This document shows, piece after piece, positions 3,665 through 23,560 of a stretch of DNA of 64,000 nucleotides. Under the pieces are notes generated by a model, which was not told the origin of the DNA, ran no database searches, and was given only the letters and a program-made list of their open reading frames with translations. Numbering within the stretch: position 1 is the stretch's first letter; each line of letters opens with the position of its first letter. A program made the translations under genes and the position numbers. Origin of the DNA: Deltaproteobacteria bacterium HGW-Deltaproteobacteria-19 (lineage in GTDB: Bacteria; Desulfobacterota; Syntrophia; Syntrophales; PHBD01); the NCBI GenBank assembly GCA_002841865.1, contig PHBD01000002.1, positions 1-64,000 on the forward strand. Reading direction: 5' to 3'.

Positions 3665-5536
3665 TCAAGGCGCCAGCATCGCCCAGATGATGAGCACCGT
3701 CAGGAGGAGGCCCAGGAGCAGGCTTCCCAGGCCGAAGACGGCGGCAAACAGCTTCACGGCGATGCCGGGGTGCTCCCGCTTGAGGCCTTCCAGTCTCTCT
3801 TCCGCCATCACCCGCTCATATTCCAGGGGACGCTGCTCCCTCATTTCATCAAGGGTATAGGTGCCCGAGAAGATGAGACGATCCAGGGGAAACTTCGTCG
3901 GGATGAAGTGGGTGTTGAAAAAGTGGACCGTAAAGATGAACAGGGCCGCCAGAAGCGCTTCCTCGGAATGGACCAGGGTCGCAACGTTCAGGACCCAGCC
4001 GGGGACGATCCAGGAGGACCACTCCGTCTTCCACAGGAGAAGGCCCGAGACGCCGATGGCGAACATGCCCCAGAAGACCGCCCAGAAGTCGAACTTCTCC
4101 CAGTAGGTCCAGCGCTCGAACTTCGGCATGGGCCCCCGATCGAAGAACCAGAGGAACATGTCCCGGATGTCCCGGATGTCCTTGAAGTTGGGAACCAGCG
4201 ACTCGGGACCGAATATGCGGCCGACGAGGCCCTTCATACCCTGCCCTTTGGGGAAGAAGTAGATCAGGCCCTTGATCGCTACAATCGTCACCAGGACGAT
4301 GAGAACGAAGGCCGCCAGCCGGTGGAAGAATCCGGCCACTTCGTTGCCTCCCCACAGTTCGAGCAGGAATTTCGACCAGGCCACGGAGGGGTACTTGATG
4401 GGGAATCCCGTCAGGATCAGCGTGAAGAACGAGATGATCAGGATCACGTGCATCAGCCGCTCCCAGGGACGGAAGCGCTGGACCTGAACGTGGCCTTCTG
4501 TTCCCGGGAAATACTGCTCCGGAAGGAGTCCTTCCTTTTCCCGCCGGTGCTTCTCCCAGTATACCTTCCGCCACCACAGGAAGGTGTGGGTCCAGAAAAA
4601 GAGGAACACCCCTCCCAGGAGGATCTCCATGAAAATGAAGGCCCAGTAGAGGGCGGGGTAATTCTCCCGGTCGTGGTAGTCCGGGTGGGCGCTGTAGGAA
4701 ACGAAACGGGGATGGAATCCCTGGTGGCAGGCGCCGCAGTTCTTCACGAGGTTGGCGGGATAGAGGCTGGAACCGGGATCCGTCTTGGGAAGGATGTCGT
4801 GCCCCTTGTGACAGTCGGCGCATCCTGCGACCTGGGTCGGGTAGCCGGCGTCGCGGACCTTGCCGTGATAGGTCTGCTCGTAAGAGGCGACGATATTCGG
4901 CCGGAGCTTGTTCCGCTTCACAAGATCCGCGTCGGAGTGGCATTTCTCGCACCGTTCCGTGTAATGTGTCCGTGCCTCCTTCGGATATGCCCCCCCGGCC
5001 GTATGAAAAGCCCGGGTGTCGTGAAGCCCGTGGCAGTCGGCGCAGGAGGCGGCGTCCTCGTTGCCCTTCAGGACGGCCTCGGCATGCCCCGCGGCGACGT
5101 ACTCGTCCCGGCTGTGGCATCGCGTGCAGTCCTCGACGATGGCCTTTTTGACGCTTCCCTCCGTTTTCCGGAGCCCGTGGATCTCCCCATGGCAGTCGGC
5201 GCACTGGAAATTTTCCCGGAGGAAATGAACGTTCTTCCCGTACGCCCGGGCGACTTCACCGTGGCAGTCGCCGCAGGCCACGGGCTCCGGTCTCTCCTCG
5301 CCCCGCATGTGGCGGCCCGCGTCGGCGATCCCCCGGTGGCAACTCGTGCAGCTGTTCGCCCCGTGGGCAGACCCGGCATATCGGGATTTGAACGGCTCGC
5401 CGCTGTGGCAGCCGAGACAGGTGGAGGACGAGACCGAGGCGTAACCGGGGACCGTCGTGAGGATCCAGGCCAGGCATGCACCCGCCGCGACCAGGAGAGC
5501 GCCATGACGACGCAGCCAGCAATATAATCGTTCCAT
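3665..5536 (-). CDS. Nine-heme cytochrome c fused to cytochrome b membrane domain (CbcL-like)
   Basis: This 623-residue protein has an N-terminal hydrophobic signal/anchor (about residues 12-32). A periplasmic part with nine CxxCH heme motifs follows (up to about residue 275), then a C-terminal membrane part with about five helices carrying histidines typical of di-heme cytochrome b. The architecture, nine c hemes plus a HydB/FdnI-like b domain, matches the inner-membrane quinol oxidase CbcL known from Geobacter. The predicted role is to move electrons from menaquinol to periplasmic cytochromes. A short conserved soluble tail and a last membrane helix follow. It lies 21 bases after the rhodanese gene in the same direction and is probably co-transcribed. 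The CbcL function is inferred from architecture; the true acceptor is unknown. Confidence 0.85.
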   Translation of the reverse strand: MERLYCWLRRHGALLVAAGACLAWILTTVPGYASVSSSTCLGCHSGEPFKSRYAGSAHGANSCTSCHRGIADAGRHMRGEERPEPVACGDCHGEVARAYGKNVHFLRENFQCADCHGEIHGLRKTEGSVKKAIVEDCTRCHSRDEYVAAGHAEAVLKGNEDAASCADCHGLHDTRAFHTAGGAYPKEARTHYTERCEKCHSDADLVKRNKLRPNIVASYEQTYHGKVRDAGYPTQVAGCADCHKGHDILPKTDPGSSLYPANLVKNCGACHQGFHPRFVSYSAHPDYHDRENYPALYWAFIFMEILLGGVFLFFWTHTFLWWRKVYWEKHRREKEGLLPEQYFPGTEGHVQVQRFRPWERLMHVILIISFFTLILTGFPIKYPSVAWSKFLLELWGGNEVAGFFHRLAAFVLIVLVTIVAIKGLIYFFPKGQGMKGLVGRIFGPESLVPNFKDIRDIRDMFLWFFDRGPMPKFERWTYWEKFDFWAVFWGMFAIGVSGLLLWKTEWSSWIVPGWVLNVATLVHSEEALLAALFIFTVHFFNTHFIPTKFPLDRLIFSGTYTLDEMREQRPLEYERVMAEERLEGLKREHPGIAVKLFAAVFGLGSLLLGLLLTVLIIWAMLAP

Positions 5537-5557: not shown

Positions 5558-6373
5558 CTAGCGTTTGCCCCGGGATTTCGATTCCTTTTCCAGAAACACC
5601 TGCCACTGCCGCATCCCTCCGAAAAGGCGCACCGCATCGAGCCCCTTTCTCCGGAGATACGACGCCGCGAGAAACGACCGCTCGCCGCGGTCGTCCACAA
5701 CCAGAATCGGTTTGTCGAGGGGGATTTCCGGATAGCGCTCGTGAAGCTCCTCGAGGGGAATATTGACGGCCTCCCCGATGCGGCCTTGCTTGTACGCGCC
5801 GGGCATCCGGATGTCGAGGACCGTCAGGGGCCGTTTCTGCTCCAGCCAACCCTTGAGCACGGCGGGCCGGACTGCAGGCCGGGGCGTCCGGGGAATCCGC
5901 CCGGGAGACTCGACGGAGAACCCGGCCTCTTTCCAGGCAGCCAGGCCGCCCTTGAGCACCAGGACCTTCGTGTAACCAAGGGGCCGCGCGGCCGCAAGAT
6001 ACGGATCCGCCTGGGGGCATTCCCGAATCCCGCAGTAGAGAACCAGCGGGCGATTCCGGTCCGGCGCAAGCCGGGGAAGCAGCACCGCCGGATCCCCGGC
6101 GGACGGACAGATCGAACCCGGAATCCGGCTGTCCAGGCACTCGATCCGGCTTATGACGTTCAGCACGGTGGCGCCCCCCTCCTTCAGCAGGCGGTCCAGG
6201 TCCGCAGGATTGACGGTCGCAGGACCCGCACCGGCGGCGCCTGCCGCCCGGGCAGGTCCCGGCAGGAAGAGCAGAAAGGCCATCAGGACCAGGCCGCCTG
6301 TTTTGAGGCTCCGGGAGACCTGCACGGCGAGCCGCCCGGAACGGCGAATCCGGTTATTCATGGGATGGAACAC
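5558..6373 (-). CDS. Exported tandem rhodanese-domain protein
   Basis: This 271-residue protein has an N-terminal signal sequence (basic residues, then a hydrophobic run ending in PARAAG) and two rhodanese domains. The first (about residues 50-145) keeps a cysteine in the active-site loop (YCGIREC), so it could carry a persulfide. The second (about 160-260) has VVDDRGERS at that position, with aspartate replacing the catalytic cysteine, and is probably inactive. The start is a GTG at 6371-6373 that overlaps the end of the 8-heme cytochrome gene by 20 bases; an ATG four codons later is the alternative. The context suggests sulfur or selenium handling next to periplasmic cytochromes, but no substrate can be read from sequence. 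Confidence 0.8.
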   Translation of the reverse strand: MFHPMNNRIRRSGRLAVQVSRSLKTGGLVLMAFLLFLPGPARAAGAAGAGPATVNPADLDRLLKEGGATVLNVISRIECLDSRIPGSICPSAGDPAVLLPRLAPDRNRPLVLYCGIRECPQADPYLAAARPLGYTKVLVLKGGLAAWKEAGFSVESPGRIPRTPRPAVRPAVLKGWLEQKRPLTVLDIRMPGAYKQGRIGEAVNIPLEELHERYPEIPLDKPILVVDDRGERSFLAASYLRRKGLDAVRLFGGMRQWQVFLEKESKSRGKR

Positions 6374-8354
6374 GGGTCAGCCCCCATTCGCTCATCTGGG
6401 GAACCGCATTGGGCTCCTTCAGGTTCGGGTAGTCGTCCTTGAGAAATCCCCTCGGATTCTTCATCTGCATCTTCGTGAAGAAAGGAGCCGCGTCGTCGTG
6501 GCACTGGGTGCATCCCTTCGCTCCAAGCGTCTTCTTCTGCTTCAGGGGAGTGATGCCGTGCTCTACGGGATAGGATTTGACAATATCGGTCAGGGGCTCC
6601 GCCGCGATCCCGCCCCCTTCGAGCCGGTAGACCCGGTCGGAGACGAAGACCACGCTCCGGAATCCCCTTTTCTGCAGGGCCTGGATCATCCCGAGGATGT
6701 CGGCATCCGATACCGCGGCGGGCAGATGAACGTTCTTCCCGTCTCCGCCATTCACCGCCAGGGCCGTCAGACCCCGAACCCCGCCTGCGGCCCGCTGCAC
6801 ATGCCGGAGCGGAATCGGACGGATCTCCCCGTTTTTCATCCGCTCGCCGAACCATACCTTCAGTTTCGGAACATGGGACAGGTATTTCTCCCGGGGAACT
6901 CCTCCCGCCCGGCCTCTGGCCTGCCAGGGAAGCCACGGCGTCCGGGCCGGCCGGCCATAATCCGCCGGTACAAGGGCGAGATCGAAACCGTCCGCCGTGA
7001 AGCCCGCCTCCCGGCCGGCGCTCATATCCAGAAGCAGGAGCCCCCGGGCGGACCGTTCCGTGGCGTGGCAGCCGGTGCACGCAACCAGGGAAAAGTGAAA
7101 AGACCCCCTGGGAAATCTCTTCCCATGGGTGATTTGCGGATCCTTTGCCTCCGCGGGCATTCCGGGCCGGGAAGGCTTGTACTTCCTCTCGTAATGGCAT
7201 CCGGCGCAGGTCTTCATGTCCCGCCCGTCCAGGTCGTTCCGCACCGCCACCGCCGGATTCCATCCCTTTGCGATCTGGTGCCGGAGTCGCTCGGCTTTGG
7301 ACCTCCCGACCAGGGGGTGGCAGTCGGTACAGCGGAGGCCCGCCGCAGCGTGGGCGTCATGGGGAGCGGCATTGACCGTCCCGGAGTTCCTGGCGTCCGA
7401 TTCCCGGTGGCAGGCCAGGCAATTCTCCGACCGGACTGCCCGGGAAATGACGGATCCGCGAAGACGCCCCTCCTTCGTGAACAGCCGCCCGTCGGCCCAG
7501 GAATACTCAGCCACGGGCCGCTTCGTGAAGTTCCACGTTCCCCGGAGAAACGCCTTCGATTCCGGTCCCGCCCCGGGAGCGGCATACGTGAAAACGGCGC
7601 CGGAGATCTTTCCGAGGCCTCCGCCCGCCGTCGCGGCCCAGCGGTAATTGCGGCGGTTGATCTGCTCGATCCGATCCCCGAAGCGATAACCCCTGCTGTG
7701 GCAGATCAGGCAGTCCGCCTCCAGGACGCCGCTCTCCCGAAAATGGCTCCGGCCGTCCGGCGCCAGGTGGGAAGAGTAGTCGCCGTCGAGAGGGGCTTTC
7801 GAGGACCGCTCCGCCTCGATGTGGTTCGCCGCCGTGTTTTGTCGTCCGTCGGCCCGGCGGCCGTATTCGAGAGGACCTCCGCCGGGATGGCACCAGCCGC
7901 AGGCCACGGACTCGACGCCGGCCTTCTTGCTCCGCTTTCCGTAACCGCCGATCCAGTCGTACGTGGAGAGGTCGATTTCCCGGGCACTGCCGTTCGCCTT
8001 CCGGGCGACACGGCCGGCGGCGGCAAAGGGGGACCAGTTTCCGAACATGCCGGGGGAAAGGATCCAGGGTGTCTTCGGATCGTGACGGTCGCTCATCTCG
8101 TCGAAGCCCTGCTGGAAATGATAGCCCGACGTGATCACGTCATAGTTGTGGCAGGCCCCGCAGGATTTTTTCGGGCTGTACGGGTCCACCCGGTTCTGGG
8201 AGGGGGTGATCCGGTCGCCCTGCTCGTTGTTCAACCAGATATCCGGATGGACCCGGGCGAATGCCGAGGAAACCGCCAGCAGGACGATCGCCAACGAATA
8301 CAGTATGAGAACCGCAACAATGCGTGACACACAGGGCGATTTCAGTTGCTTCAT
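6354..8354 (-). CDS. Periplasmic octaheme cytochrome c
   Basis: This 666-residue exported protein has a clear signal peptide (MKQLK start, hydrophobic core, cleavage after AFA near residue 34) and eight CxxCH motifs: CGACH, CGWCH, CLICH, CLACH, CTDCH, CAGCH, CTGCH and CTQCH. The hemes are unevenly spaced, and a heme-free stretch of about 200 residues lies before the last one. It is not one of the classical octaheme nitrite or hydroxylamine enzymes, because it lacks a CxxCK motif and is longer. The ATG at 8352-8354 was preferred because the signal peptide begins there and GGATGGGG precedes it; an upstream in-frame ATG at 8370-8372 is possible. A role as an electron conduit or terminal reductase is inferred from location only. 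Confidence 0.82.
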   Translation of the reverse strand: MKQLKSPCVSRIVAVLILYSLAIVLLAVSSAFARVHPDIWLNNEQGDRITPSQNRVDPYSPKKSCGACHNYDVITSGYHFQQGFDEMSDRHDPKTPWILSPGMFGNWSPFAAAGRVARKANGSAREIDLSTYDWIGGYGKRSKKAGVESVACGWCHPGGGPLEYGRRADGRQNTAANHIEAERSSKAPLDGDYSSHLAPDGRSHFRESGVLEADCLICHSRGYRFGDRIEQINRRNYRWAATAGGGLGKISGAVFTYAAPGAGPESKAFLRGTWNFTKRPVAEYSWADGRLFTKEGRLRGSVISRAVRSENCLACHRESDARNSGTVNAAPHDAHAAAGLRCTDCHPLVGRSKAERLRHQIAKGWNPAVAVRNDLDGRDMKTCAGCHYERKYKPSRPGMPAEAKDPQITHGKRFPRGSFHFSLVACTGCHATERSARGLLLLDMSAGREAGFTADGFDLALVPADYGRPARTPWLPWQARGRAGGVPREKYLSHVPKLKVWFGERMKNGEIRPIPLRHVQRAAGGVRGLTALAVNGGDGKNVHLPAAVSDADILGMIQALQKRGFRSVVFVSDRVYRLEGGGIAAEPLTDIVKSYPVEHGITPLKQKKTLGAKGCTQCHDDAAPFFTKMQMKNPRGFLKDDYPNLKEPNAVPQMSEWGLTRVPSHE

Positions 8355-8491
8355 GATCCGGTCCCCATCCATTCAAAACCGGGGAGCGCGCGAACAGCCG
8401 ACGAGCCCCATTCCTGCGGGGAGGAGGTACTGCTTGAGAATGCCGTGTTCCCGCCGGCGGGGTCGTTTCCAATCCCGCGAGGGGGAAAACC

Positions 8492-8556: not shown

Positions 8557-9444
8557 CTACTCCATGGGCGCAGACGGGTCTTTCGCCCACTCCATGAAGG
8601 ATCCGTCATAGATCTTCACATCCTTGTAACCGAGCCAGGATGAAAGGACAAAGGCCCAGGACGTGCACGTCTTCCCGGTATCGCAATAGAGAATGATCTC
8701 TCTGGCGAGATCCATCCCCACGGTTTTCGAGGCCATGGAGGCAAGGGTGTCCTTCAACTTATAAAGTCCCTCCGGCGTATAGAGAGCGCCGACGGGCAGG
8801 TTGACGGCACCCTTGATGCGTCCTGTCTTCGGAACGAAGGGCAGCTTTTCCTTGCCGCCATAAAATGCCGGCCCCCGGGTGTCCAGAATGACAGCCTTTC
8901 CCAGCCTGTCCGCTACATAGGCCTTGGAGACGAACAGTCCCTTGTTCATCTTCCCCCGGAAGGGCTTTGCCTTGGGCCTCACCATCTCCTGGGAAAGAGC
9001 CTTCTTTTCCTTCACCCATTTCTCCTGACCGCCGTCCAGGATCGCCACCTGGTCGACCCCCATGTACTTCAGCGTCCAGGCCACCCGGGTCATGTCGAAG
9101 CGGTCGGGCATCGCCGCCGTCCTGCCGATCAGGACGACCCAGGAATCCGGGCCGATTCCGGCCCCGCCGATCGTGTCCGCCAAGTCATCGGCCGGCGGCA
9201 GTTCATTCAGGAGATCCCCCTTCTTGATCGCCCAGGACCCGTAGAATACGTTGACTGCTCCGGGGATATGCCCCGCCTTGTATTCCTCCACCTTCCGGAC
9301 GTCCACCATGACCAGTTTCGCGTTTCCCAGGTTCTTCTCCAGCCAGTCGGTGGTGACGACGGGATCCAGAACCTGCGCCCAGGCCGCCAGGGGCAGCAGC
9401 AGCGCTGCCATTACGACTGCCAACAGCATGCTCCTTCGCTTCAT
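8557..9444 (-). CDS. Exported thiosulfate sulfurtransferase-like tandem rhodanese
   Basis: This 295-residue protein has a signal peptide (MKRRSM start, cleavage near AWAQ, residue 23) and two rhodanese domains, as in thiosulfate or 3-mercaptopyruvate sulfurtransferases. The N-terminal domain lacks the loop cysteine. The C-terminal loop reads CDTGKTC, giving a catalytic cysteine and a second cysteine six residues later, which differs from the canonical C-x4-[T/R] loop. AAGGAGG precedes the ATG. It is a paralogue of the protein encoded at 16642-17538. It lies 23 bases after the ExtKL-like cytochrome, an arrangement that recalls the rhodanese-like ExtH beside ExtKL in Geobacter selenite/tellurite loci; that equivalence is inference. 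Confidence 0.83.
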   Translation of the reverse strand: MKRRSMLLAVVMAALLLPLAAWAQVLDPVVTTDWLEKNLGNAKLVMVDVRKVEEYKAGHIPGAVNVFYGSWAIKKGDLLNELPPADDLADTIGGAGIGPDSWVVLIGRTAAMPDRFDMTRVAWTLKYMGVDQVAILDGGQEKWVKEKKALSQEMVRPKAKPFRGKMNKGLFVSKAYVADRLGKAVILDTRGPAFYGGKEKLPFVPKTGRIKGAVNLPVGALYTPEGLYKLKDTLASMASKTVGMDLAREIILYCDTGKTCTSWAFVLSSWLGYKDVKIYDGSFMEWAKDPSAPME

Positions 9445-9467: not shown

Positions 9468-10706
9468 TTACTGCGTGATCGGCCTGATCGGACAGATCAG
9501 TCTGCTGTTCGCCGTGGAGCCGTCCCTGATCAACTGTTCCTTTGTCAGGAAGCCCGTTTTCTCCACATGGCAGGTATCGCAGTTCCGGGTCCGGTCCGTC
9601 CGCTTCCGGATGTTGTGGACCGGGCTGTCCCAGTAGTTGGGGAGCGCGTCGAAATGCTCCATTTTGAGTCCCGCGGGTGCAAATGTGTCACGCACGGTGG
9701 GGATGAGCCTGAGCGTGGTGAGCTTTTTCCTGTCCCGGGGATTCAGTCCCAGGCGGAAGGCGGAGGACGACTTGGAGTGACCGCCGTGGCAATCGCTGCA
9801 ATCCCTGTATTGCCCGGATGAGTGGCATCCGTAGCAGGTCACCTTGTCCCTGTGTCCCTCGTGGGCCGCCCGGGCATAGAGCTTCGGGCTCTTCGCCAGC
9901 TTGTGGCAGTTCGTGCAGGAGGGCCGGTCCTTCACCTCCATCTTCGACTTGTAGGCCGTCCCGTCGCCGTGCATCTCCGCCTTCCGGTGGCAATCCATGC
10001 ACATCATCCCCTTCTGGTAATGCACGTCCGGGGATCCTCCGAACTCGCCGGTAAACTCCGGGTAGACGCGGCCGCCGTGGCAGAAGGCACAGGTTTTGCC
10101 CTCGTCCTTCTTCACGAACTTGTGCCCCCGGATCAGCCCCAGGCCGATGCCGGACACGGGCGGAGACTTGACATGGCAGTCTCCGCAGGATGCATGGCAA
10201 CTCCGGCACGATTTTTCAAAGACCTTCTCCTCGAAGGCCTTGAATTCCGCCGTCGAAAAGCGGGGCCGGACACCATTCCGCTGGCCCGCGGAGGTATAGT
10301 GGAGGGACTTGCCATAGGTCTCCGTGATCTTTTTGTGGCACATGGCACACTTCTGGAGATTGTCCGACGGCTTCCGGACAAGGCCCTTGTGCGCCCTTTC
10401 CCTGGAGACGATGCTGTCGTCCCCCTGGTGGCAGAGCTTGCAGGGAAGCTTCAGGTGGACATCTTTCCCGATGAGGTCTTTGTCCACCACATATCCTTTG
10501 TAATATTCTTCCGCCTTGACCGGCGGAGGCGCTCCCGCTCACCCCTCCCCTGCGGCTTCCATTGCGGGGGGCTTCACCATGGCCTTCATCATCGACGCAT
10601 TGGTATGGCAGGTGACGCAGGAGCTTGTCTGAGCGGCGTCGGCGGCCAGGACCATAAGAAAAAACAGAGGCAGGAAGATTGAAAACGGTCTGAAAAGCCA
10701 TCGCAT
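9468..10706 (-). CDS. extKL: Undecaheme cytochrome c, ExtKL-like, with in-frame UGA (selenocysteine)
   Basis: The reading frame starting at ATG 10704-10706 encodes a signal peptide (MRWLFRPFS start), a first heme motif CVTCH at residues 30-34 and, at codon 56 (10539-10541), TGA. It then continues in the same frame for 356 codons with ten more CxxCH motifs, giving 412 residues and 11 hemes. A hairpin follows the TGA: stem TCCGCC/GGCGGA with loop GGTCAA, placing GGU 18-20 bases after the stop, close to the geometry of the bacterial SECIS of fdhF and identical to that of the selenoperoxiredoxin at 22835. The part after the TGA has no signal peptide of its own and so makes little sense as a separate gene. 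As I recall, Geobacter ExtK and ExtL are likewise two halves split at a selenocysteine codon. The role is probably periplasmic or surface electron transfer. Confidence 0.8.
10510..10541 (-). promoter_or_regulatory. UGA codon plus SECIS-like hairpin in extKL
   Basis: The TGA at 10539-10541 is followed by a 6-bp stem (TCCGCC with GGCGGA) closing a GGTCAA loop. The loop begins 18 bases after the TGA. GGU in an apical loop at this distance is the hallmark recognised by SelB in bacteria. It lies inside the coding sequence, as bacterial SECIS elements do. Confidence 0.72.
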
Positions 10707-12548: not shown

Positions 12549-14118
12549 ATGATGAAACGTGAAGACACGGAAGCGGCGGTGACAAAAGGCGTGAGCAGGC
12601 GTTCTGTTCTCAAAGGCGCCGTGGCGATGGGGGCCGGCGGCGGCCGGCGGCATCGCCCTCAATATGGGGATTCCCGGGACTGCAGAGGCCATGATCAAGA
12701 AGCTGCCGGCCAAGTGGGATGAGACCTGGGACGTGGTGATCGTCGGTTCCGGGTTCGCGGGACTCGCGGCGGCGGCCGAAGCGGCGGGAAAGGGCGCCAA
12801 GGTCGTTGTCCTGGAGAAGATGCCGACCTACGGCGGGAACTCCATCATCAATGGAGGAGTCTATGCAGCCTGGGACAGCAAGTACCATTACAGGCAGAAA
12901 CTGAACCTCGGAGATGACAGTCCCAGACAGCACGTGGAAGACACGCTCAAGGGCGGCGACTTCTACAACATCCCGGAATTGGTACAGATTATGGCCGACG
13001 GCGCCGCGGACGCCCTCAACTGGATGATCGACGAGGGCGGCGCCCGGGTTCGTGAGACCGTCACCCGGGCCGGAGGCCACACGGCCTACCGGACCCATTC
13101 AGCCGTAGCCGGCGTAGGGCGCGAATACACCGAAGCCCTCCGGAAGATCGCCGAGAAACGGGGCGCTAAGACCGCTCTGAACTCCGAGGTCACCTGGATC
13201 TGGCGGAAAGACGCAGATCCCAAGAGCCCCGTGCTCGGCGTGCAGGTCAAGCGGGGCCGGAGAACGCTCAACATCAAGGCGGCCAAGGCCCTCATTCTCG
13301 CGTCCGGCGGGTTCAGCCGGGACATCAAGATGCGGATGGCCCACAACCCCAGGCTCGTGCCCGCCTTCGGCTGCACCAACCAGCCGGGGGCCACGGGAGA
13401 AATGATCCGGTTCGCCCAGGCGATCGGCGCCGACACCCTGCAAATGAATTTCATCCAGCTCTATCCCTTTGCCGAACCGGAGACGAGCATCCTCGACACG
13501 CCGGCGGTGTATCCCTTCAACGGACCGGGGTACGGCATCGTCTACGTGAACAAGCTGGGCAAGCGCTTCGTCAACGAGCTGGAGCGCCGGGACGTCTGCG
13601 CCTTCGCCCAGATCAACCTGGGAGCCAATATGAAGCCCACCTGGAGCATCTTCAACCGTGCCATGGTCCTGAAGATGGGCGGCTCCTACGAGGAAGTCGA
13701 TGCTGGCCTGAAGAAGGGCCGGTTCATCCAGGCCGATTCCATCCGCGAGATGGCGGGCAAGCTCGGTATTCCGGCGGACGCGCTGGTGAAGACCATCGAG
13801 GACCACAACCGTTACATCGAGCAGGGAAAGGACCCCGACTTCAACAAGTCCATCACGAAGGTCATGATCCCCCTGGTGGAAGGCCCCTTCTACTCCGTCG
13901 CCCAGTGGCCGGCGGTCCATCACTGCATGGGGGGCGTCCGGATCAGCCCGACCGCCCAGGTCATCGATGTCTTCGGGGCCGTGATCCCGAAACTCTATGC
14001 AGCCGGTGAAGTCGCCGGCGGCGTCCACGGGTCGAACCGCCTGGGCAGCAACGCCATTCCCGACGCCGTGTCCTTCGGCCGCGTGGCGGGCACCAATGCC
14101 GCCAGGGAAAGGGCATAA
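12549..14118 (+). CDS. Tat-exported FAD flavoprotein, fumarate/enoate reductase family, frameshifted
   Basis: The start at 12549 has AAGGAGG and leads into a twin-arginine signal (SRRSVLKGAVAMGAGG). Reading then continues in another frame from about 12640, through the FAD motif VVIVGSGFAGLAAAAEA to the end. Removing one base in the run of GGC repeats at 12630-12652 would restore one 522-residue protein, so this is a 1-base frameshift or a sequencing error. The family's catalytic residues are visible: HHCMGG, the arginine of ELERRD and HGSNRLG. The position that is histidine in fumarate reductases (Q-x-H-P) is tyrosine (QLYP), as in some reductases of other 2-enoates such as urocanate. The adjacent 7-heme cytochrome is the likely electron donor. 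Confidence 0.83.
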
Positions 14119-22834: not shown

Positions 22835-23560
22835 ATGGCGAAAGAGATGAAAGTGGGTTGCGCCCGGCCCACGGGGGGCCCCGTGGGCGAGGCCGTGATC
22901 GAGGCAACCGGAGGAAAAACCCAGCAACCGCAGCAGAAGGAGGTGAGGCAGATGGTGACGGTCGGCAAGAAGGCCCCGGATTTTACGGCGCCGGCGTATC
23001 AGAAGGGCAAGTTCATCGAGGTGAAACTGTCGGAGTACCTCGGAAAGTGGGTCGTCCTCTGCTTCTACCCGGGTGATTTCACGTTCGTATGAGCCACGGA
23101 GATCTCGGCGGTCGCCGAGAAATACCCCGAATTCAAAAAGCTGGGCGTGGAGATCCTCTCCATGAGCGTCGACAGCGTCTTCGTCCACAAGATGTGGAAC
23201 GACCATGAGCTCTCCAAAATGGTCAAGGGAGGAGTTCCCTTCCCCATGCTCTCCGACGGCGGCGGCAAGGTCGGGAGCGTCTACGGCGTCTATCTGGAGG
23301 ATGCGGGCGTGGAGGCCCGGGGCCGGTTCATCATCGACCCCGACGGGATCATCCAGGGCTTCGAGGTCCTGACTCCACCGGTGGGCCGGAACATCCTCGA
23401 GTCCATCCGCCAGATCCAGGCGTTCCAGGTTGTCCGGAAATCAAAGGGCACGGAGGCGACGCCCTCGGGCTGGAAACCCGGGAAGATGACCCTGAAGCCG
23501 GGGCCGGACCTGGTCGGACGGGTCTGGGAAGTCTGGAAAACGAAGATGGCCTTCGACTGA
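22835..23560 (+). CDS. Selenocysteine-containing peroxiredoxin (PrxU-like)
   Basis: This frame of 242 codons is interrupted only by TGA at codon 86 (23090-23092), exactly where typical 2-Cys peroxiredoxins have the peroxidatic cysteine: GDFTFV-U-ATE versus DFTFVCPTE. Downstream sequence continues as a complete AhpC/Prx domain. A perfect hairpin (CTCGGC/GCCGAG, loop GGTC) places GGU 18-20 bases after the TGA, as in a bacterial SECIS. The C-terminal resolving cysteine is missing (ATPSGWKPG where VCPANWKPG is usual). The protein should reduce peroxides with an external thiol partner. AAAGGAGG supports the ATG at 22835. The first 40 residues, with one cysteine, form an unusual extension. Confidence 0.9.
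23090..23119 (+). promoter_or_regulatory. UGA codon plus SECIS hairpin in selenoperoxiredoxin gene
   Basis: TGA at 23090-23092 is followed by a 6-bp perfect stem (23104-23109 with 23114-23119) and a four-base GGTC loop. The distance from UGA to GGU is the same as in the extKL gene of this window. Confidence 0.82.

Follow-up and report, generated by a model that had tools for sequence, protein, structure and literature searches.

A multiheme cytochrome c family with a predicted selenocysteine after its first heme, often encoded beside a rhodanese

ExtKL (NF040886), of the Geobacter extHIJKL cluster, is an exported multiheme cytochrome c with one selenocysteine (Sec) and with a rhodanese, ExtH, encoded nearby (PMC5877670, PMC6148476). 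It has five hemes, and its Sec follows the last of them, in the motif IPDGUPTPN. A 2026 inventory of 119 prokaryotic selenoprotein families (PMC13188914) lists ExtKL together with two other Sec-containing heme/CXXCH families: TIGR04315 (the tetrathionate reductase family octaheme proteins) and NF041027 (GSU2204). None of its entries matches the protein described here, and in the open-access literature searches for earlier Sec multiheme cytochromes with a UGA codon returned no paper, or else only ExtKL papers, reviews and unrelated papers.

The gene in question lies in a window of 64,000 nt—the whole stretch of DNA that was analysed—from a genome of 3.98 Mb in 87 contigs (Table 1). Like ExtKL, its product is an exported multiheme cytochrome c with one predicted Sec and a rhodanese gene nearby, but it has 11 hemes rather than five, and its Sec comes after heme 1. 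When the TGA is read as a residue, the minus strand forms a single 412-codon frame, with no further stop, in which a signal peptide is followed by 11 CxxCH motifs, the marks of a multiheme cytochrome c; GAGGG lies ~7 nt upstream of the ATG. Residue 56, the U, falls between heme 1 (30–34) and heme 2 (89–93). According to the original prediction, the signal peptide and heme 1 share one frame with hemes 2–11, split only by the TGA, and the part after the TGA lacks a separate export signal; translation agrees with the former, and the sequence bears out the latter. Homologues, too, have ATG starts, Shine-Dalgarno-like sequences and hydrophobic N-termini, and a CxxCH motif lies no more than 45 aa upstream of the U in 155 of 156 loci. 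Codon 56 almost certainly inserts Sec, a read-through for which the conserved column, the constrained hairpin and the Sec machinery described below argue strongly, as had been proposed. We refer to the protein as the selenocytochrome. Some Syntrophales encode 17-heme versions (L025, L029 and L031), in which six extra N-terminal heme motifs precede it; the extension of L025 matches a generic triheme c7 domain, and this was the only match above cut-off that NCBIfam gave among the relatives tested.

Table 1. Features of the selenocytochrome gene and of the genes downstream of it, in window coordinates
Feature	Position	Strand	Remarks
11-heme selenocytochrome CDS	9468..10706	(-)	412 aa + TAA stop; predicted Sec at residue 56
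ATG start and signal peptide	10632..10706	(-)	About residues 1–25
Heme 1 motif CVTCH, residues 30–34	10605..10619	(-)	Upstream of UGA
In-frame UGA, predicted Sec 56, motif GEGUAG	10539..10541	(-)	Column kept in homologues
Predicted SECIS apical hairpin UCCGCC-GGUCAA-GGCGGA	10510..10527	(-)	GGU at 10521–10519
Heme motifs 2–11, residues 89–380	9567..10442	(-)	Ten CxxCH motifs
Exported two-domain rhodanese, loop CDTGKT	8557..9444	(-)	Pfam Rhodanese x2; directly downstream
672-aa multiheme cytochrome	6354..8372	(-)	Near selenocytochrome in 21/80 loci
Second exported rhodanese, two domains	5558..6373	(-)	Local operon
Multiheme cytochrome fused to cytochrome b561-type membrane domain	3665..5536	(-)	Pfam Cytochrome_C7 x6, Ni_hydr_CYTB

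The protein had been called 'ExtKL-like'. As a statement of family membership this is not supported: the heme count and the position of Sec differ, and NF040886 (cut-off 250 bits) gave no match to the selenocytochrome up to E 0.1, its best score in the same genome, 33.9 bits, being at another locus. When the profiles of the two families were compared, 33 columns aligned around the generic heme motif, with a probability of 42%. We have next to no doubt that the families are distinct; the resemblance is functional only, that of a Sec multiheme cytochrome beside a rhodanese. The TIGR04315 and NF041027 models likewise gave no match up to E 0.1, and no model in NCBIfam release 20 scored above its cut-off. 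The ExtM, ExtN and ExtO models show weak similarity in the heme region (31–34 bits, against cut-offs of 200–800 bits). Sequence searches of solved structures yielded heme-stretch matches only, such as the partial profile match, at E 8.8e-6, to 1sp3 ('cytochrome c, putative'), which we take to be the octaheme tetrathionate reductase; it leaves the Sec region uncovered. There is every appearance, then, of a separate family, and quite probably one that has not been described before.

ExtKL and the selenocytochrome seldom share a genome. In the 395-genome samples of the phylum ExtKL is found in 40 and the selenocytochrome in 54, at least six of these 54 matching only weakly and in part, with the Sec region not included; just one genome (G363) has both, at two separate loci, where about five would be expected by chance, an expectation confounded by lineage structure. 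Replacement or a lineage split is hinted at. This rarity of shared genomes, and a parts list of Sec multiheme cytochrome plus rhodanese that is the same in both systems, would suit a cytochrome that reduces selenite or tellurite by means of Sec, as has been proposed for the Geobacter ExtH–ExtKL locus, and deletion of extI does impair both reductions (PMC5877670). However, homology to ExtKL does not extend beyond the heme motif, no ExtI-type porin was noticed here, and in Geobacter it is for ExtI, not ExtKL, that selenite reduction was shown; we regard this reading of the selenocytochrome as rather improbable.

Our best guess from the genes nearby is sulfur, or a related chalcogen. The selenocytochrome is the first gene of an operon that continues with a rhodanese, a multiheme cytochrome, a second rhodanese and a multiheme/cytochrome b561 protein, the last of these being the likely link to quinones. 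The first rhodanese matches the NCBIfam MST and ExtH models below cut-off. A rhodanese gene lies directly downstream in 61 of 78 eligible selenocytochrome loci and is missing from that place in the other 17; the adjacency spans orders and phyla, Geobacter sp. OR-1 and Spirochaetota included, and nearly all of these rhodaneses retain the catalytic Cys loop. Several divergent loci with short flanks showed nothing similar to a rhodanese. One locus, L159 (in G426), joins the two functions in a single 717-aa open frame: a Sec-less homologue fused to two tandem C-terminal rhodanese domains. The far end of the operon, past an enoyl-CoA hydratase gene, holds ResB-like and CcsA-like genes for cytochrome c assembly, at positions 360–2659 of the window and on the same strand.

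We can envisage how these components might work together. The selenocytochrome would be a periplasmic 11-heme cytochrome c in whose synthesis SelB and tRNA-Sec read UGA 56, directed by the hairpin just downstream, and Sec, in the glycine-rich loop that follows heme 1, would be the catalytic residue. The selenolate would attack or accept sulfane sulfur—from thiosulfate, polysulfide, tetrathionate or a rhodanese persulfide, with selenite-derived species as a possible alternative substrate—and the Se–S adduct so formed would exchange electrons with a nearby heme. Electrons would then pass along the heme chain, in one direction or the other, between this site and the multiheme and cytochrome b proteins encoded nearby, and the rhodanese would handle the sulfane sulfur. 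Chemistry of this kind beside a heme has a possible working analogue in the cysteine-ligated cytochromes TsdA and SoxA, which use Cys rather than Sec and to which no sequence relationship was found; in TsdA, the cysteine heme ligand forms an S-thiosulfonate intermediate (PMC4423706). The Se–S version is inferred from this likeness. To the explanation as a whole—a Sec cytochrome of its own family, performing sulfane-sulfur redox chemistry at Sec near a heme—we give about even odds (roughly 0.5). Sulfane-sulfur chemistry considered by itself, with the substrate guessed from the neighbours, falls a little short of an even chance, and a role for Sec as a ligand of a heme, or as a catalyst at its side, is a tentative suggestion. 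The strictest version, a selenolate-heme enzyme whose Sec ligates or serves an active-site heme, performs sulfane-sulfur redox chemistry with a periplasmic rhodanese, and is hardly ever lost, seems to us doubtful.

What draws attention to Sec as a reactive or ligating group is its isolation: Sec56 is the sole conserved free chalcogen residue, conserved free Cys being absent. The eleven hemes have only nine invariant His outside the CxxCH motifs to share, which leaves at least one heme without a conserved His as its sixth ligand. That heme may be open, or may have some other ligand, possibly Sec. The same count could mean that Sec serves as an axial heme ligand for structure or for redox tuning, in a protein of pure electron transfer without catalysis, but the link to rhodanese suggests chemistry, and cells seldom bear the cost of Sec unless it is put to catalytic use; we think such a passive role unlikely. 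In the AlphaFold model of the 412-aa protein (mean pLDDT 72.5) the Sec loop falls below 50, and neither a PDB fold search nor VIA found structural relatives of the model. Should Sec prove to ligate or serve a heme, the selenocytochrome would contain a selenolate-heme centre of natural origin. With a rhodanese as partner, a sulfur or selenium role can be tested directly.

All of this presupposes Sec at position 56, for which the evidence is comparative. The original prediction looked to homologues for the state of the UGA column, and there the codon is kept. TGA stands in one column across 113 or more distinct homologues, which represent two phyla and reach down to ~30% identity; the figure, a lower bound, is the number of distinct contexts left once repeats were removed, all of them TGA. 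In the main alignment the column is TGA in 119 of 121 loci, to which the loci of a further alignment can be added. Nearly every full-length homologue has a single in-frame TGA. Of the 100 genomes sampled from the order, 43 have a homologue, or 42 of 99 if the window's own is set aside, and a contig search counted 511 relatives, the best 80 of which were examined. The two phyla are Desulfobacterota and Spirochaetota. A search of the phylum to which locus L128 (Spirochaetota) belongs found the selenocytochrome in 6 of 296 genomes, and L088 is the copy of Geobacter sp. OR-1. Certain divergent members (L164, L165 and L166) have the motif AGUGVSAP, or one similar, with a rhodanese downstream, and L164 also matches the GSU2203 decaheme model weakly.

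The exceptions found number three. L040 has Trp in the column (TGG, a one-base change), with the hairpin intact and SelB present; L076 has Ala (GCA), again with the hairpin intact; and in L159 the Sec residue is deleted. In the first two it is as if Sec had been lost recently. A non-Cys residue in this column had been named as evidence that would count against Sec, and apart from these rare cases none turned up. Trp and Ala each occur once, so the requirement for Sec may not be strict. None of the loci read (the best 80 of the 511 relatives, plus the genome samples) had Cys there. Cys forms exist for most selenoprotein families, whereas here Sec is present in more than 100 divergent sequences and Cys in none of those seen, which suggests chemistry beyond the reach of sulfur.

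Downstream of the UGA is a hairpin with the loop GGUCAA, its GGU 18–20 bases past the codon. Hairpin and TGA are retained together in more than 110 distinct homologues. Folded by itself, the window sequence is not unusual (z about -1.4); the proof for the putative SECIS element is comparative, rather than a matter of single-sequence folding. Among 88 ungapped coding sequences of 200 codons, 57 columns are fourfold degenerate, with a median entropy of 1.76 bits, and the three least variable of the 57 are stem positions of the hairpin. Within the stem, codon 9 (index 29) has G in 87 of 87 sequences, codon 4 (index 14) has T in 85 of 88, and codon 5 (index 17) has G in 73 of 88. Codon 8 can be CGG, AAG, CCG, AGG, TCG, ACG or CAG—six different residues—and its final base is G in 87 of 88. 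In codons 1–3 past the UGA, third positions (indices 5, 8 and 11) are free while Ala-Gly is fixed, and thus the stretch after the UGA is translated. A divergent 'UGG' subgroup (subgroup B) builds the stem differently, as GGCUCC-GUU-GGAGCC, and in some members the arms are swapped, GGAGCC-GUU-GGCUCC, turning APLEP in the protein into EPLAP. In this subgroup 95% of cells are paired, seven of them double-changed, a level that 0 of 500 shuffles reached, and RNAalifold recovers the same helix. Lying 3' of the UGA, with a G in the apical loop and under constraint at the RNA level, the hairpin looks as a bacterial SECIS element should, and the geometry foreseen for it is upheld by that constraint and by the compensatory swaps. 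It was said, also, to equal that of the peroxiredoxin gene in the window, and so it does: the hairpin of the Sec peroxiredoxin (PGDFTFVU; TGA at 23090–23092, plus strand), CUCGGC-GGUC-GCCGAG, has its GGU at the same offset from the TGA. The peroxiredoxin is a second selenoprotein gene within the window.

The genome has the means to decode such a codon. A check for selA, selB, selC and selD had been recommended, and SelA (611 bits), SelB (374 bits), SelD (391 bits) and tRNA-Sec (73.8 bits, over cut-off) are all present, the SelD gene itself having an in-frame TGA. Co-occurrence with SelB does not discriminate among relatives, because 94 of 100 of their genomes have SelB over cut-off. The informative points are two: G479, the genome of the Ala form L076, in which no SelB was found over cut-off, although its completeness is not established; and G025, 97% complete, which has neither SelB over cut-off nor a member of the selenocytochrome family.

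Could the UGA be read as an ordinary amino acid, such as Trp, rather than as Sec? The TGG of L040 would favour this, but a hairpin of SECIS geometry under RNA-level constraint, a geometry shared with the Sec peroxiredoxin, a complete set of Sec machinery in the genome, and the Ala form in a genome where SelB was not found leave it very little room. Least probable of all, and barely worth entertaining, is a true stop between two separate genes, the way ExtK and ExtL used to be annotated: a GTG at 10490 does open a 340-aa frame, but the downstream part would have no signal peptide when heme attachment must be periplasmic, the residues to either side of the UGA are kept although their third positions vary, and nearly every full-length homologue keeps the frame with its single TGA. 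Annotation pipelines can nevertheless be expected to cut Sec-containing genes of this kind at the UGA, losing the signal peptide and heme 1, and to do so in many syntrophic and metal-reducing bacteria.

An interrupted frame of another sort can be found on the plus strand of the window. At ~12550–12670 there is a Tat-type signal (SRRSVLKGAVAMG) whose frame differs from that of the FAD protein following it (12664–14118), and in a relative, L053, signal and FAD domain share one frame. The likely cause is an indel or a fault of assembly where the sequence is rich in GGC/CGG, near 12640.
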